Origin: Clostridiales bacterium
GTDB taxonomy: Bacteria; Bacillota; Clostridia; Christensenellales; Borkfalkiaceae
Assembly: GCA_015055945.1 (NCBI GenBank)
Contig: SVHH01000002.1
Location: 124,001-188,000 of the forward strand
Direction of reading: 5' to 3'
DNA: 64,000 bases
The notes under the pieces are model-generated. The model was not told the DNA's origin, ran no database searches, and was given only the letters and a program-made list of their open reading frames with translations. Shown one piece after another: positions 21,171 to 62,935 of this stretch; positions within the stretch are counted from its first letter, which is position 1, and the number at the start of each line of letters is the position of its first letter. Position numbers and translations under genes: made by a program.

Positions 21171-21926
21171 ATGGATTTAGTTTTAATTACAGCCCTTGGC
21201 GTTGGTGGTGCAACCATTTTCGGCGTCGTTATAGGGTTTCTTTTCAAGAATATCACTCATAAATTTAGCGATATAGTGCTGTCTTTTGCCGCGGGCGTTA
21301 TGCTTGCCGCCGCTGTGTTCGGGCTTATTTTGCCGTCGGTTGAACTGGGCGGCAAATGGGGCTTATTATACGCCGTTTTGGGTATTTTCGTAGGTGCAAT
21401 TTGCTTAAATCTTATGGATAAGTTTACCCCGCACTTGCATAAACTATCCGGTACGGAACTTGAAGAGCACGGGCATAACGGTAAGATTGCAAAAGTAATG
21501 CTTTTCGTTATAGCAATCGCTATACATAACCTGCCCGAAGGTATTGCGGCGGGCGTTGGCTTTGGTTCTGGAAATAACACGCACGCGTTAATCGTTGCCG
21601 CTGGTATTGCGCTCCAAAATATCCCCGAAGGTATGGTTATCGTTGGACCTATGATTGCTGCGGGTATTAGCAAAAAGCGCACCTTTTTCTTAGCGGCGAT
21701 GACTGGGTTAATTGAAGTTGTTGGCACTTTTATAGGTTACTTTGCCGTAAGCATAAGTTCTGCAATATTGCCCTTTGCCCTAGCGTTTGCGGGCGGAACG
21801 ATGCTTTACGTAATTAGTGATGAAATGATACCCGAAACGCACGCGCACGGTGCGCAGCGCGGTTCTACTTACGCACTGTTAGTTGGCTTTTGTTTAATGC
21901 TAGTTTTCGATATTTTGCTCGGTTAA
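21171..21926 (+). CDS. ZIP family metal transporter
   Basis: AIAIHNLPEGIAAGVGFG, ALQNIPEGMVIVGPMIAAGISK motifs. Confidence 0.93.
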   Translation: MDLVLITALGVGGATIFGVVIGFLFKNITHKFSDIVLSFAAGVMLAAAVFGLILPSVELGGKWGLLYAVLGIFVGAICLNLMDKFTPHLHKLSGTELEEHGHNGKIAKVMLFVIAIAIHNLPEGIAAGVGFGSGNNTHALIVAAGIALQNIPEGMVIVGPMIAAGISKKRTFFLAAMTGLIEVVGTFIGYFAVSISSAILPFALAFAGGTMLYVISDEMIPETHAHGAQRGSTYALLVGFCLMLVFDILLG

Positions 21927-21964
21927 GGGCTTATATGCGGCGCAAGGCATCGTTTACTGACTTA
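21904..21964 (+). repeat. Direct repeat copy 1 (gene tail + intergenic element)
   Basis: 60/61 identical to 22069-22129; includes the last codons of the ZIP gene. Confidence 0.95.
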
Positions 21965-22068
21965 CACAAAAAACTTCGATGAACAGACGTTCTATCTCAT
22001 CTTTTTGTGCAGTCGAGCCTCCCCTTGCTTGCATCTAACCCATTAACATATACTTTTAACTTAAACGC

Positions 22069-22129
22069 TTTTCGATAATTTGCTCGGTTAAGGGCTTATA
22101 TGCGGCGCAAGGCATCGTTTACTGACTTA
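22069..22129 (+). repeat. Direct repeat copy 2
   Basis: 60/61 identical to 21904-21964; flanked by a second identical 28-mer pair (22043-22070 / 22141-22168). Confidence 0.95.
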
Positions 22130-22168
22130 AATCTAAGCCTTTAACATATACTTTTAACTTAAACGCTT

Positions 22169-22462: not shown

Positions 22463-22643
22463 CCCCGATAAAGAAGTTGTTAAAACTATTCAAGAAGGCT
22501 TGAAAAGAACGGGCGGATATTGCCCTTGTAGATTGAGCCGAACCGAAGAATATAAGTGTATGTGCAAAGAGTTTAAAGAGCAAATTGCTGACCCTAATTT
22601 TGAAGGTTTTTGCCACTGTCTATTATATTATAAACACAAATAA
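22446..22643 (+). CDS. Ferredoxin-thioredoxin reductase catalytic subunit-like protein
   Basis: GGYCPCRLSRTEEYKCMCKEF...GFCHCLLY: CPC/CxC/CHC pattern; RBS aaggaga; ATG 22446. Confidence 0.8.
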   Translation: MKITLNPDKEVVKTIQEGLKRTGGYCPCRLSRTEEYKCMCKEFKEQIADPNFEGFCHCLLYYKHK

Positions 22644-22854
22644 ACTTTAAGCCATATATGCGGCGTGATCCGCGTTTCCTTGCGCTTTTATTTGGTTGTG
22701 TACAGAAAGTACACGCCCTGCATAAAATGCTCATTTTCCACGGCTGACTTGCATCTATGTCTTAAAATACTTTGCGAGCCTTGTCTTGCTTGTTTCTTTG
22801 GACTTATTAAAAAACATATTTTTAACCTTACAAAAAACTAAATGGAGAATACAA

Positions 22855-25795: not shown

Positions 25796-27136
25796 ATGGA
25801 AAAAGAAAATTATGAGATTTTATGGGAACAAACCTTCCTTCCTGAACTGGAAAGGGCGGTTAGTTCTATCGCCTATTCAACTTACATCGAGCAATTAAAG
25901 CCCGTGGATATGAAAGGCAATAAAATCGTTCTCTGCACGAAGAGCCAACTTTTTGCGGACACCGTTAGCGATAAGGCTATCGGCGGCAAGATTAGAGAAG
26001 CACTTTTAAAAAGTGGCACTTTCGTAAACGATTTTGAAGTGGTTGTTGCGGCTGATAGAGAAGATTACTTAAAGCAATACGGCGCTAATGATGAAGCGGA
26101 AGAAATCCCCGGTTCTCCCATTAATCCCAAGTTTACTTTTGACTCGTTCGTAGTAGGTTCTTCTAACGAGTTCATTTACGCTGCCGCAAAAGCAGTTGCT
26201 GAAAACCCTGGCGACGCGTATAACCCCTTATTCATTTACGGTGGCACGGGCTTAGGAAAAACCCATATACTTATGGCTATTGCCAACTACCTTAAACTTC
26301 ACACCCCAAGCCTAAAGGTTTTATACGTTACTTGCGAACATTTTACTAACCAAATGGTGGAAAGTTTATCTAAGGGTAAACTTACTCCTGCGGATTTTAG
26401 AAGAAAGTATAGAAACGTGGACGTTTTGCTTATCGACGACGTTCAATTTCTTGCTAAAAAACAAAGTACTCAAACCGAGTTCTTTAACACTTTCAACGAA
26501 CTCGTTGCACAGAACAAGCAAATCGTTTTAACTTCTGACCGTCCCCCGCACGAAATTGAACTTTTGGAAGAAAGACTTCGCACTCGTTTTGAAGGCGGAC
26601 TTCTTGCCGACGTTCAAACGCCTGACGTGGAAACGCGTATTGCTATCTTAAAAAGAAAGGCTGAAGAAAAGAAGTGCGTTGTGGACATCAAAGTTTTAGC
26701 GTATATTGCTGAAATGAGCGACGGCGATATCCGTTCACTTATCGGTAAACTTACAAAAGTTATTTTTGCGTCTAAACTTCACGAAAAGCCCATTACGATC
26801 GACCTTGTAAACGATGCTCTAAAGGAAAGCGCGGGCGAAAAACAAGAAGAATTACAAGCCGAAGATATTATTACTTGCGTGTGCAACTTCTATAAAATAT
26901 CTAAAAACGATATGCTCGGTAAAAAGAAGAATAAAGAATTCGTTCTTCCTCGCCAAGTTGCTATGTATTTAATTCTCGATATGATGACTCTCCCCCAAGT
27001 AACCGTAGGTAACTTCTTTGGCAGAGACCACGCAACCGTAATTTACGCGCGTGATAAAATCGACAAACAAATGAAAACTGATAATAAACTTTCGGTTGAA
27101 GTTAACGACATCAAAAAGATGTTACTCAAACAATAA
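25796..27136 (+). CDS. dnaA: Chromosomal replication initiator DnaA
   Basis: NPLFIYGGTGLGKTHILMAI, LLIDDVQFLAKK, LPRQVAMYLILDMMTLPQVTVGNFFGRDHATVIYA. Confidence 0.98.
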   Translation: MEKENYEILWEQTFLPELERAVSSIAYSTYIEQLKPVDMKGNKIVLCTKSQLFADTVSDKAIGGKIREALLKSGTFVNDFEVVVAADREDYLKQYGANDEAEEIPGSPINPKFTFDSFVVGSSNEFIYAAAKAVAENPGDAYNPLFIYGGTGLGKTHILMAIANYLKLHTPSLKVLYVTCEHFTNQMVESLSKGKLTPADFRRKYRNVDVLLIDDVQFLAKKQSTQTEFFNTFNELVAQNKQIVLTSDRPPHEIELLEERLRTRFEGGLLADVQTPDVETRIAILKRKAEEKKCVVDIKVLAYIAEMSDGDIRSLIGKLTKVIFASKLHEKPITIDLVNDALKESAGEKQEELQAEDIITCVCNFYKISKNDMLGKKKNKEFVLPRQVAMYLILDMMTLPQVTVGNFFGRDHATVIYARDKIDKQMKTDNKLSVEVNDIKKMLLKQ

Positions 27137-27149
27137 TTTTTAAGTGCGA

Positions 27150-27245
27150 ATAAGCGGCGTTATGCTGCGTTACTGCTTTGTGTTTGGACTTCGATAACCA
27201 AAAAGGTTAATCTCACCCCAAACACTTCACGAGCCTTGCTTAACT
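27150..27245 (+). repeat. Structured intergenic element downstream of dnaA (family member)
   Basis: GCGGC/GCTGC hairpin; GTGTTTGG (27180-27187)/CCAAACAC (27218-27225) stem; ACTTCGAT; TAACC/GGTTA inner hairpin; ATCTCA; CACGAGCCTTGCTT. Confidence 0.6.
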
Positions 27246-27405
27246 TGCTTCTTCACCCTTAAAACAAGTTAAGAACAAGTATAACTTGCATCTATGGCTT
27301 AAAAAGGAAAAAGAGCCTTGCCACGCTTGTATCTAAACCCTTAAAACGGGTTTTAAGCGGTTGCGCTTGAAAAAAACACAAAAAATAAATATTTTACTAT
27401 AAATT

Positions 27406-58882: not shown

Positions 58883-58957
58883 TTTAAGCGCGAATAAGCA
58901 GTGCGTTTCTTCGTTACTACTTCTTCACTCTTAAAAGAGTTTAATAAAAAACAAAAA

Positions 58958-61404: not shown

Positions 61405-62829
61405 ATGAAAAAAAGCGTAAAAGATATTTTGGCAATTATTAAAGAAAACAATATTGAAATGGTTGACTTTAAGATGGTTGACATCAACGGTCAATATCGC
61501 CACGTAACAATCCCCGCACAAAATTTTAGTGAAGAAACTATGAAGAGCGGTATCGGTTTCGATGCATCAAACTACGGTTACGCCGTTGTTGAAAAGAGTG
61601 ATATGGTGTTTATTCCCGACCCTGACACTGCTGTTATCGACCCGTTCTGTTCAGTTCCTACCCTTTCTATGACGGGTAACGCTATGATTATCGACACGCC
61701 CGAAAATAGACCGCTTCCGCAATATCCCAGAAATATCGTTCGTGCAGCGGTTAAGGCTATGCAAGATAGCGGCGTTGCTGATACTATGTATATTCTCCCC
61801 GAATTTGAATTCTATCTTTTCGACCAAGTTGGTTGGGAAGTTAGCGGTAGAGAAATGAGCGCGTTCGTTGACGCTAAACAATCTTACTGGAACAGCGCAA
61901 ACGAAGGGTTAGGCGTTGTAGTTCCCAAACAAAAGAACTATCATATTGCAAAACCGTTCGATATTTCTTACGAATGCCGTAGTGAAATGTGCAAATATAT
62001 GACTGATGCTGGTATTGAAATCAATTACCACCACCCCGAAGTTGCTGCATCTGGTCAATTTGAAATTGAACCACAACTCGGCGAAGTCGTTCATATGGCG
62101 GACGCTACTATGATGATTAAATACATCATTCATAACACCGCCCTAAAGTATGGCAAAACCGCAACCTTTATGCCCAAGCCCATTTACGGCGAAGCAGGCA
62201 GCGGTATGCACGTTCATATGCTCTTAATGAAAGACGGCAAGCCCGTGTTCTCTGATGATAACGGTTACGCACACTTGAGTGAAACCGCGCACTACTTTAT
62301 GGGTGGTCTCTTAAAGCACATCGCATCACTTTGCGCACTTACCAACCCCAGCACTAACTCGTTTAAGCGTTTAGTTCCTGGTTTTGAAGCACCCGTAACC
62401 GTAGGTTACGCAACGTCTAATCGTAGTGCGGTTATTCGTATCCCCGCATACGCAAAATCTCCCGAAAAGAGAAGATTTGAACTTAGAAACCCCGATGCAA
62501 CTTGCAACCCGTACTTCTGCTACGCTGCAATCTTAATGGCTGGTCTTGACGGTGTTAAAAACAAAATTGACCCGCATAAAAACGGTTGGGGTCCTTACGA
62601 CGTAAATCTTTACCATCTCCCCGAAGAAGAAAAGGCAAAACTCCAAGGCTTACCCGTATCTTTAGAACAAGCGCTTGATGCTTTGGAAAAAGATAACGAA
62701 TATTTGACCGCAAACGGCGTATTCCCCAAAGAACTTATTGCAAACTTCATTAAAACCAAGCGTGCAGAATGTAGAGAACTTTCAGCAATTCCTAATCCTG
62801 CTGAGTTCGATAAGTATTTTAACTTATAA
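61405..62829 (+). CDS. glnA: Glutamine synthetase type I
   Basis: EFEFYLFDQ, GSGMHVHMLLMKDGKPVF, NRSAVIRIPAYAKSPEKRRFELRNPDATCNPYF. Confidence 0.97.
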   Translation: MKKSVKDILAIIKENNIEMVDFKMVDINGQYRHVTIPAQNFSEETMKSGIGFDASNYGYAVVEKSDMVFIPDPDTAVIDPFCSVPTLSMTGNAMIIDTPENRPLPQYPRNIVRAAVKAMQDSGVADTMYILPEFEFYLFDQVGWEVSGREMSAFVDAKQSYWNSANEGLGVVVPKQKNYHIAKPFDISYECRSEMCKYMTDAGIEINYHHPEVAASGQFEIEPQLGEVVHMADATMMIKYIIHNTALKYGKTATFMPKPIYGEAGSGMHVHMLLMKDGKPVFSDDNGYAHLSETAHYFMGGLLKHIASLCALTNPSTNSFKRLVPGFEAPVTVGYATSNRSAVIRIPAYAKSPEKRRFELRNPDATCNPYFCYAAILMAGLDGVKNKIDPHKNGWGPYDVNLYHLPEEEKAKLQGLPVSLEQALDALEKDNEYLTANGVFPKELIANFIKTKRAECRELSAIPNPAEFDKYFNL

Positions 62830-62935
62830 GACCTTGGCTTGCTTGTTTCTTCACTCTTAAAACGCAAAATGTTCGGCGTTTATGATTTAAGATTAAAAAT
62901 TATATAAAAATATTATTAACAAAAGGAGAATTTTT

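Follow-up and report, generated by a model that had tools for sequence, protein, structure and literature searches.

The reading frame of dnaA (25796-27136, stop codon at 27134-27136) is followed immediately by a structured non-coding sequence, which raises the question of what kind of element stands there, how widespread it is, and whether its fold belongs to RNA or to DNA. All coordinates below are positions within the window, i.e., the whole 64,000-nt stretch of DNA that was analysed. A sequence-only reading had described blocks shared between 27150-27245 and 21930-22035, the latter behind a ZIP-like transporter gene, and all of them were found in both places, including GCGGCG...CGTT(T)ACTG, the common loop block ACTTCGAT, ATCTCA and CGAGCCT...CTTGCTT, together with differing inner hairpins and 8-bp stems of differing sequence (GTGTTTGG/CCAAACAC behind dnaA, CACAAAAA/TTTTTGTG behind the ZIP-like gene). 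Its blocks are real, but its coordinates were too narrow, the unit being 27136-27263; likewise, the stems it listed exist, but a 7-bp stem (P3) and the basal stems P1 and P2 had been missed. The element behind dnaA is composed as follows:

27136..27263, + strand: full class A element, directly 3' of dnaA (match to covariance model R1, E 1.9e-31)
27140..27150, + strand: 5' arm of P1 (T), pairing with 27252-27262; columns 7-17 and 122-132 of alignment A1 in the covariation counts
27153..27155, + strand: 5' arm of P2, AGC, pairing with GCT at 27247-27249
27159..27165, + strand: 5' arm of P3, GTTATGC, pairing with GCTTAAC at 27238-27244, with one mismatch at the fifth position
27166..27175, + strand: conserved internal-loop strand TGCGTTACTG, facing GAGCCTT at 27231-27237
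27180..27187, + strand: inner 8 bp of P4, GTGTTTGG, pairing with CCAAACAC at 27218-27225
27188..27192, + strand: conserved loop ACTTC, facing TCACC at 27213-27217; on the bottom strand, tandem G.A pairs
27193..27212, + strand: P5 hairpin GAT-AACC-AAAAA-GGTT-A-ATC, with one bulged A
27252..27262, + strand: 3' arm of P1 (T'), reverse complement of T with 2 mismatches

In the dnaA element, a T.C mismatch (27151/27251) comes after the P1 5' arm, and the layout of the family, read 5' to 3' on the gene strand, is P1, the T.C mismatch, P2, NNC/TT, P3 (7 bp, usually with one T.C), a large loop (TGCGTTACTG/GAGCCTT), P4, a loop (ACTTC/TCAYC) and the P5 hairpin. No terminator was called at 27136-27263, where the rod is followed by CTTAAAA and no T-tract; an intrinsic terminator, which combines a GC-rich hairpin with a T-tract, is ruled out for the dnaA element by this missing tract, in agreement with the sequence-only reading.

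An initial DNA search with the dnaA copy returned dozens of matches in its own genome, as well as matches in relatives. Model R1, built from alignment A1 (29 copies), matched the 1.45-Mb own genome 57 times at E<=10 and 41 times at E<=0.001; furthermore, it found matches in 29 of the 44 genomes of the genus and, across the order, in 66 of 347 genomes and 25 of 138 sampled genera, nearly all genomes being metagenome assemblies with genes called as simple ORFs. Relatives named through DnaA belong to uncultured Clostridia, most of them known from gut metagenomes of herbivores. No Rfam family matched the element at the gathering threshold or at E<=1 (weak matches at E<=1 lie elsewhere, and only RNase P and a tRNA exceed the gathering score in the window), and no description of the family was found in the open-access literature. 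The dnaA element is one copy of a large, undescribed, order-wide family of short non-coding hairpin elements; the further copies that a covariance-model search had been proposed to reveal are many, and the earlier failure to recognise a known family is confirmed. The window itself holds additional copies and fragments:

21919..22047, + strand: second full class A element, behind the ZIP-like transporter gene (R1 match, E 4.3e-16)
22084..22145, + strand: truncated direct copy of the start of the 21919 element (sequence and R1 search)
22642..22767, + strand: class B element, with the same basal module and another apical domain, GTGTAC-AGAAA-GTACAC (R1 match, E 0.002)
22769..22807, + strand: 3' fragment GCGAGCCTTGTCTTGCTTGTTTC..., behind the class B element (module match)
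27280..27304, + strand: remnant of a second element, TATAACTTGCATCTATGGCTTAAAA (sequence, by eye)
27313..27346, + strand: 3' fragment of another element, GAGCCTTGCCACGCTTGTATCTAAACCCTTAAAA (3' module match, score 44.2)
58884..58938, + strand: deletion remnant behind a gene end, the 5' module joined to a P1 3' arm
62826..62862, + strand: 3' fragment behind a gene end

Many copies stand in tandem arrays, are truncated at the 5' end or have internal deletions. In the own genome, which was read for modules in pieces (about 1.2 Mb covered), the basal module P1-P3 recurs in classes B, C and D with other apical domains, and in other families of the order the basal module occurs with the apex GGTCACGTAC...GTACGCTCC. 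Several rearrangements were also observed: a direct duplication of about 165 bp behind the ZIP-like gene (21925-22165), whose second copy is devoid of the middle of the element; an insert of about 130 bp, starting with AAAAAAGGGTATCCCGAAAAAGATTTTGCG, which lies within P4 of several class A copies, each time at the same point (L011 1458-1586, L022 and L024; own genome C15:320079, C7:108634 and C17:24259); and tandem 48-bp units, TTCGTGTAAGTGGCTTTGCCTTGTCTTACTTG...CACTTAAA, made from the 3' module of the family (own genome, C15:254900-255120).

The fold is strongly conserved, and both its pairing and the number of matches in the own genome lie well above chance. The fixed structure pairs in 86.5% of the cells of A1, versus 27-42% for slid versions, and double-change cells numbered 155 in A1, which was aligned by sequence only, versus 46 +/- 5 when shuffled, and 835 in A2 (101 distinct relatives, in an alignment fitted to the model) versus 225 +/- 17, shuffle counts that overstate the significance because copies are not independent. 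Variants of P3 keep their pairing (GCAATAC/GTCTTGC, GTTATGC/GCCTAAC, GCATTTC/GAACTGC, GTTGCAG/CTGCAAC, GCGTGGC/GCCACGC and others). The sequence-only reading had suggested selection on a folded RNA or single-stranded DNA and had named covariation as its check; the massive covariation upholds it, and our further tests favour DNA, on the bottom strand.

Among the cells of the fixed structure, 4617 were Watson-Crick, 50 were G.U (1.0%) and 143 were A.C (2.9%), and cluster-weighted values for the elements were 1.5% [1.0-2.0] for G.T and 2.7% [2.1-3.2] for A.C, whereas RNase P from 31 genomes of the same genus (RNAalifold), the one family that serves as RNA control, showed 8.8% G.U and 0.5% A.C. 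RNAalifold on a MAFFT alignment of the elements gave 6.8% G.U, a few constant G.U pairs being added; since it adds such pairs, the figure of 1.0% belongs to the covariation-supported structure. On the RNAalifold structures, one-sided and double changes stood at 36:918 for the elements versus 91:316 for RNase P. With folding as single-stranded DNA, the bottom strand came out as the more stable one for 128 of 133 copies from the genus and for 58 of 59 order-wide copies (186/192), whereas random control windows read on the leading strand had the opposite bias (56 versus 140); the bottom strand also folds better with RNA parameters. Moreover, the conserved mismatches read C.T on the top strand and hence G.A on its complement, in 29 of 29 copies at A1 pairs 18-121, 26-115, 61-84 and 62-83, the last two making a tandem GA/AG motif, which is stable in DNA and RNA. 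The elements are probably not sense-strand RNA, and DNA, specifically its bottom strand, is favoured because G.U is scarce, folding is strand-asymmetric and it is on this strand that the conserved mismatches take the G.A form; sense RNA is better excluded by these data than bottom-strand RNA. For annotators, the lesson is that strong covariation alone does not mean RNA.

The elements occupy a defined position with respect to genes and to replication. In 65% of the 169 copies considered from genus and order, a long frame has its stop codon between -3 and +20 relative to the element start, compared with 4.6% at random positions; examples in the window are dnaA, with its stop codon at 27134-27136, and the ZIP-like gene, with its stop codon at 21924-21926 (within the P1 5' arm of the 21919..22047 element). 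The upstream gene is co-oriented with the element in 50 of the 51 cases that have one. Judged by GC skew, on which origin and leading strand rest, the origin of the own genome lies near 138-142 kb of contig C4, and the elements are oriented with the replication fork at every one of the 43 independent loci whose contigs have a defined leading strand; with 22% of element-free gene ends on the other strand, this corresponds to P of about 2e-5. The first 140 kb of contig C5, a stretch holding the other, terminus-like skew switch, yielded no element module.

The host contributes to the outer stem: the native end of the upstream gene often serves as its 5' arm, and the 3' arm is an almost exact reverse complement of that arm and tracks the codons of each species at the ends of genes that we take, from our own reading of C-terminal sequences and no database call, to encode an AMP-dependent synthetase, QueA and EF-G (the name S7 has the same basis). 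Among 188 distinct copies, which carry 134 distinct T sequences, the 3' arm pairs with its own T at 10.06 of 12 positions versus 6.23 (sd 1.83) with the T of other copies, and for the 29 copies whose T lies inside a reading frame the values are 10.6 versus 5.7. The synthetase end (...KTISGKIQRNKL*) illustrates this: empty genomes finish in AAAATCCAAAGAAATAAGTTATAA or synonymous versions, followed by other sequence, and in filled genomes the same native end leads into the element, whose 3' arm is reverse-complementary to those codons. Variants with AAT/AAC and AAG/AAA are matched in five filled orthologs and in filled paralogs that use that gene end in the outer stem. At one P1 position of this site, a C opposite A is common to the copies of five species (G006, G007, G010, G015 and G040) and to paralogous genes, and thus the arm is not simply rewritten perfectly each time. 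As a separate observation, column 127 of A1, in the 3' arm, prefers C whatever the opposite host base, giving a recurrent A.C mismatch. At the queA end, other genera use other codons (ATGATGATTTTA/TAAAACCATCAT, ATGTTCATTTTA/TAAAACGAACAT, TGTCTGTTCTTA/TAAAAACAGACA and ATGATGATTATA/TATAATCCTCAT), each matched at 10-11 of 12 bases, and EF-G ends show the same matching. Many copies in the genus of the window carry a generic outer arm, TTTTAAGGGCTTATA, that is unlike native gene sequence; in the own genome, many class A copies (e.g., L010, L006 and L015) have it behind unrelated genes, where it is apparently not native.

Orthologous sites have gained or lost elements repeatedly, and empty sites carry the same native gene end as filled ones. 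Mapped on the synthetase gene tree, the filled state requires five changes, of which supported branches force at least two; the queA end of another family (...RFFSFGDACLIV*) is filled in 4 genomes, has remnants in 2 and is empty in 5; and the dnaA-mnmG interval has about 10-40 bp and no element in 6 relatives, class A elements of quite different sequence in 3, and a remnant in 1. In G006, closely similar rods with the same arm stand behind two paralogous synthetase genes. Comparison of empty and filled sites showed no target duplication at isolated copies, and in tandem arrays the target is repeated beside the second copy. No fresh insertion was seen between near-identical strains, filled and empty sites differing by 15-20% in the neighbouring gene. 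Among candidate partners in the 44 genus genomes, reverse transcriptase (RVT_1) occurred in 5 and in none of the high-copy ones, integron integrase (TIGR02249) in none over cut-off, and Y1 (HUH) transposase in 6, being missing from most high-copy genomes (G006, G009, G016, G031, G034, G036 and G043); all three were rejected as absent or unrelated to copy number. A single IS200-type Y1 transposase gene (G000:C5:124870-125226, L226) is unlinked to the elements, and no autonomous version, i.e., an ORF between end modules, was found in the own genome. Phage carriage was likewise rejected, the four IMG/VR pattern matches being unrelated sequence.

With a probability of roughly 60%, we read these copies as an order-wide family of non-coding, non-autonomous mobile DNA elements whose bottom strand forms a hairpin with a closing arm matched to the target. 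Co-oriented upstream genes and covariation would also suit a sense-strand RNA element in mRNA 3' UTRs, its fold conserved for stability, processing or termination; this is very unlikely, as G.U is rarer than A.C and RNase P shows the reverse, almost every copy folds less well on its top strand, the conserved mismatches read C.T in the sense orientation, a T-tract is missing, and most relatives have no element at dnaA-mnmG. A bottom-strand (antisense) RNA, either a small RNA or an RNA transposition intermediate with a selected fold, is unlikely to a lesser degree: the bottom strand folds better with RNA parameters too, an excess of A.C over G.U on top becomes one of G.U over A.C below, and tandem G.A pairs are common RNA motifs, but G.U on that strand amounts to only 2.7% versus 8.8% in RNase P, and the high-copy genomes have no reverse transcriptase. 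Promoters were examined by consensus scan only.

Two DNA-based mechanisms with known enzymes were weighed against the mobile-hairpin reading. REP/REPIN- or IS200/IS605-type repeats, which a Y1 (HUH) transposase mobilises using the lagging-strand template, resemble the elements as short extragenic palindromes with many copies, hairpin DNA, strict replication orientation and no regular target-site duplication (REP, REPIN and BIME sequences share this), and a short guide that pairs with the target has precedent in IS608/ISDra2 (PMC6006769). Such an origin seems highly improbable nonetheless: IS200/IS605 hairpins use a tetranucleotide guide and the lagging-strand template (PMC6006769), whereas here the 5' flank of the rod is host sequence with no constant tetranucleotide, the 10-14-nt target-matched arm is at the opposite (3') end, the stable bottom strand is on the leading-strand template, the copies are rods of about 125 bp with several conserved internal loops in a single orientation and without inverted doublets, and most high-copy genomes have no Y1 gene. 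By analogy, the system that the elements appear to work most like is the attC site (including CALINs), whose folded bottom strand is recombined by an integron-type or other tyrosine recombinase. Copies stand behind stop codons, structure is conserved over sequence, the bottom strand is the more stable one, as in mobile integrons (by about 2.1-2.4 kcal/mol; PMC5371416), and it lies on the leading-strand template, as in sedentary integrons (PMC5371416). Yet the defining features of attC fail: no integron integrase was detected over cut-off, the R''/R' boxes RYYYAAC and GTTRRRY are not constant, since the outer stem is site-specific, host-matched and made with the host gene (by eye, the P3 variants GCAATAC and GCGTGGC misfit as well), and copies are dispersed beside core genes, without cassette arrays, so far in one order only; there is little chance that they are attC-like sites proper.

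Other comparisons are more distant. Group II introns (IIC) likewise have no target-site duplication, recognise an upstream target by base pairing and sit at gene 3' ends, but the elements are far shorter, show DNA-like pairing and have neither ribozyme domains (no Rfam intron match, domain V included) nor a reverse transcriptase in any high-copy genome. The MITE-like repeats bcr1, BOX, RUP and ERIC are intergenic, dispersed, foldable and taxon-restricted sequences of about 100-160 bp with modular classes, all of which our elements share; unlike these, the elements have no fixed terminal inverted repeats, the outer stem varying by site and matching the host, and the hallmarks of DDE-type MITEs are missing, given the diversity of outer arms and the lack of target-site duplication at isolated copies.

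For a mobile bottom-strand hairpin, the following course may be proposed. The unit, about 105-130 bp long, would fold into a rod once its bottom strand is single-stranded, the internal loops being conserved while the stems re-pair freely, and this bottom-strand DNA hairpin would be the active form, acted on by a recombinase, a nuclease or a repair process. Joining of the rod would take place immediately downstream of a gene and leave no regular target-site duplication; the 10-14 bases that precede the junction, often the final codons and the stop, would then form the 5' arm of the outermost stem. The site may be picked by pairing of arm and target (guide), or this pairing may stem from fold-back synthesis during or after insertion (copy), and the matched arm would later be kept by selection or by arm-templated repair; an inherited arm is favoured because the A.C mismatch is shared, and rewriting because there are many different arms. 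Several points weigh against this explanation: our sequence searches found no partner gene for mobilisation, reverse transcriptase and integron integrase being absent from high-copy genomes and Y1 transposase from nearly all of these; pure copying at insertion would not give the shared C opposite A at the synthetase site; and the generic arm found in many genus copies is not native-looking. Alternatively, the conserved apical loops could reflect a host function.

More tentatively, and at somewhat less than even odds, the family may represent a new class of mobile element, a bottom-strand hairpin that inserts at gene ends via a rewritable arm of 10-14 nt pairing with the target, so that element and host gene form one hairpin, the arm being re-made or co-evolving at each site through an enzyme or replication-linked process not yet described. 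Known bacterial interspersed repeats bring their own fixed ends, whereas in this family host and element each supply half of the closing stem, which is matched per gene end, and such host-matched stems span an order of gut Clostridia. A guiding arm would mean base-pairing-directed site choice by a non-coding element of 125 bp; an arm made as a copy would record a fold-back insertion reaction new to science. Taken together, the arm that mirrors the gene end suggests a hitherto undescribed mechanism by which DNA selects and labels the places where it inserts.
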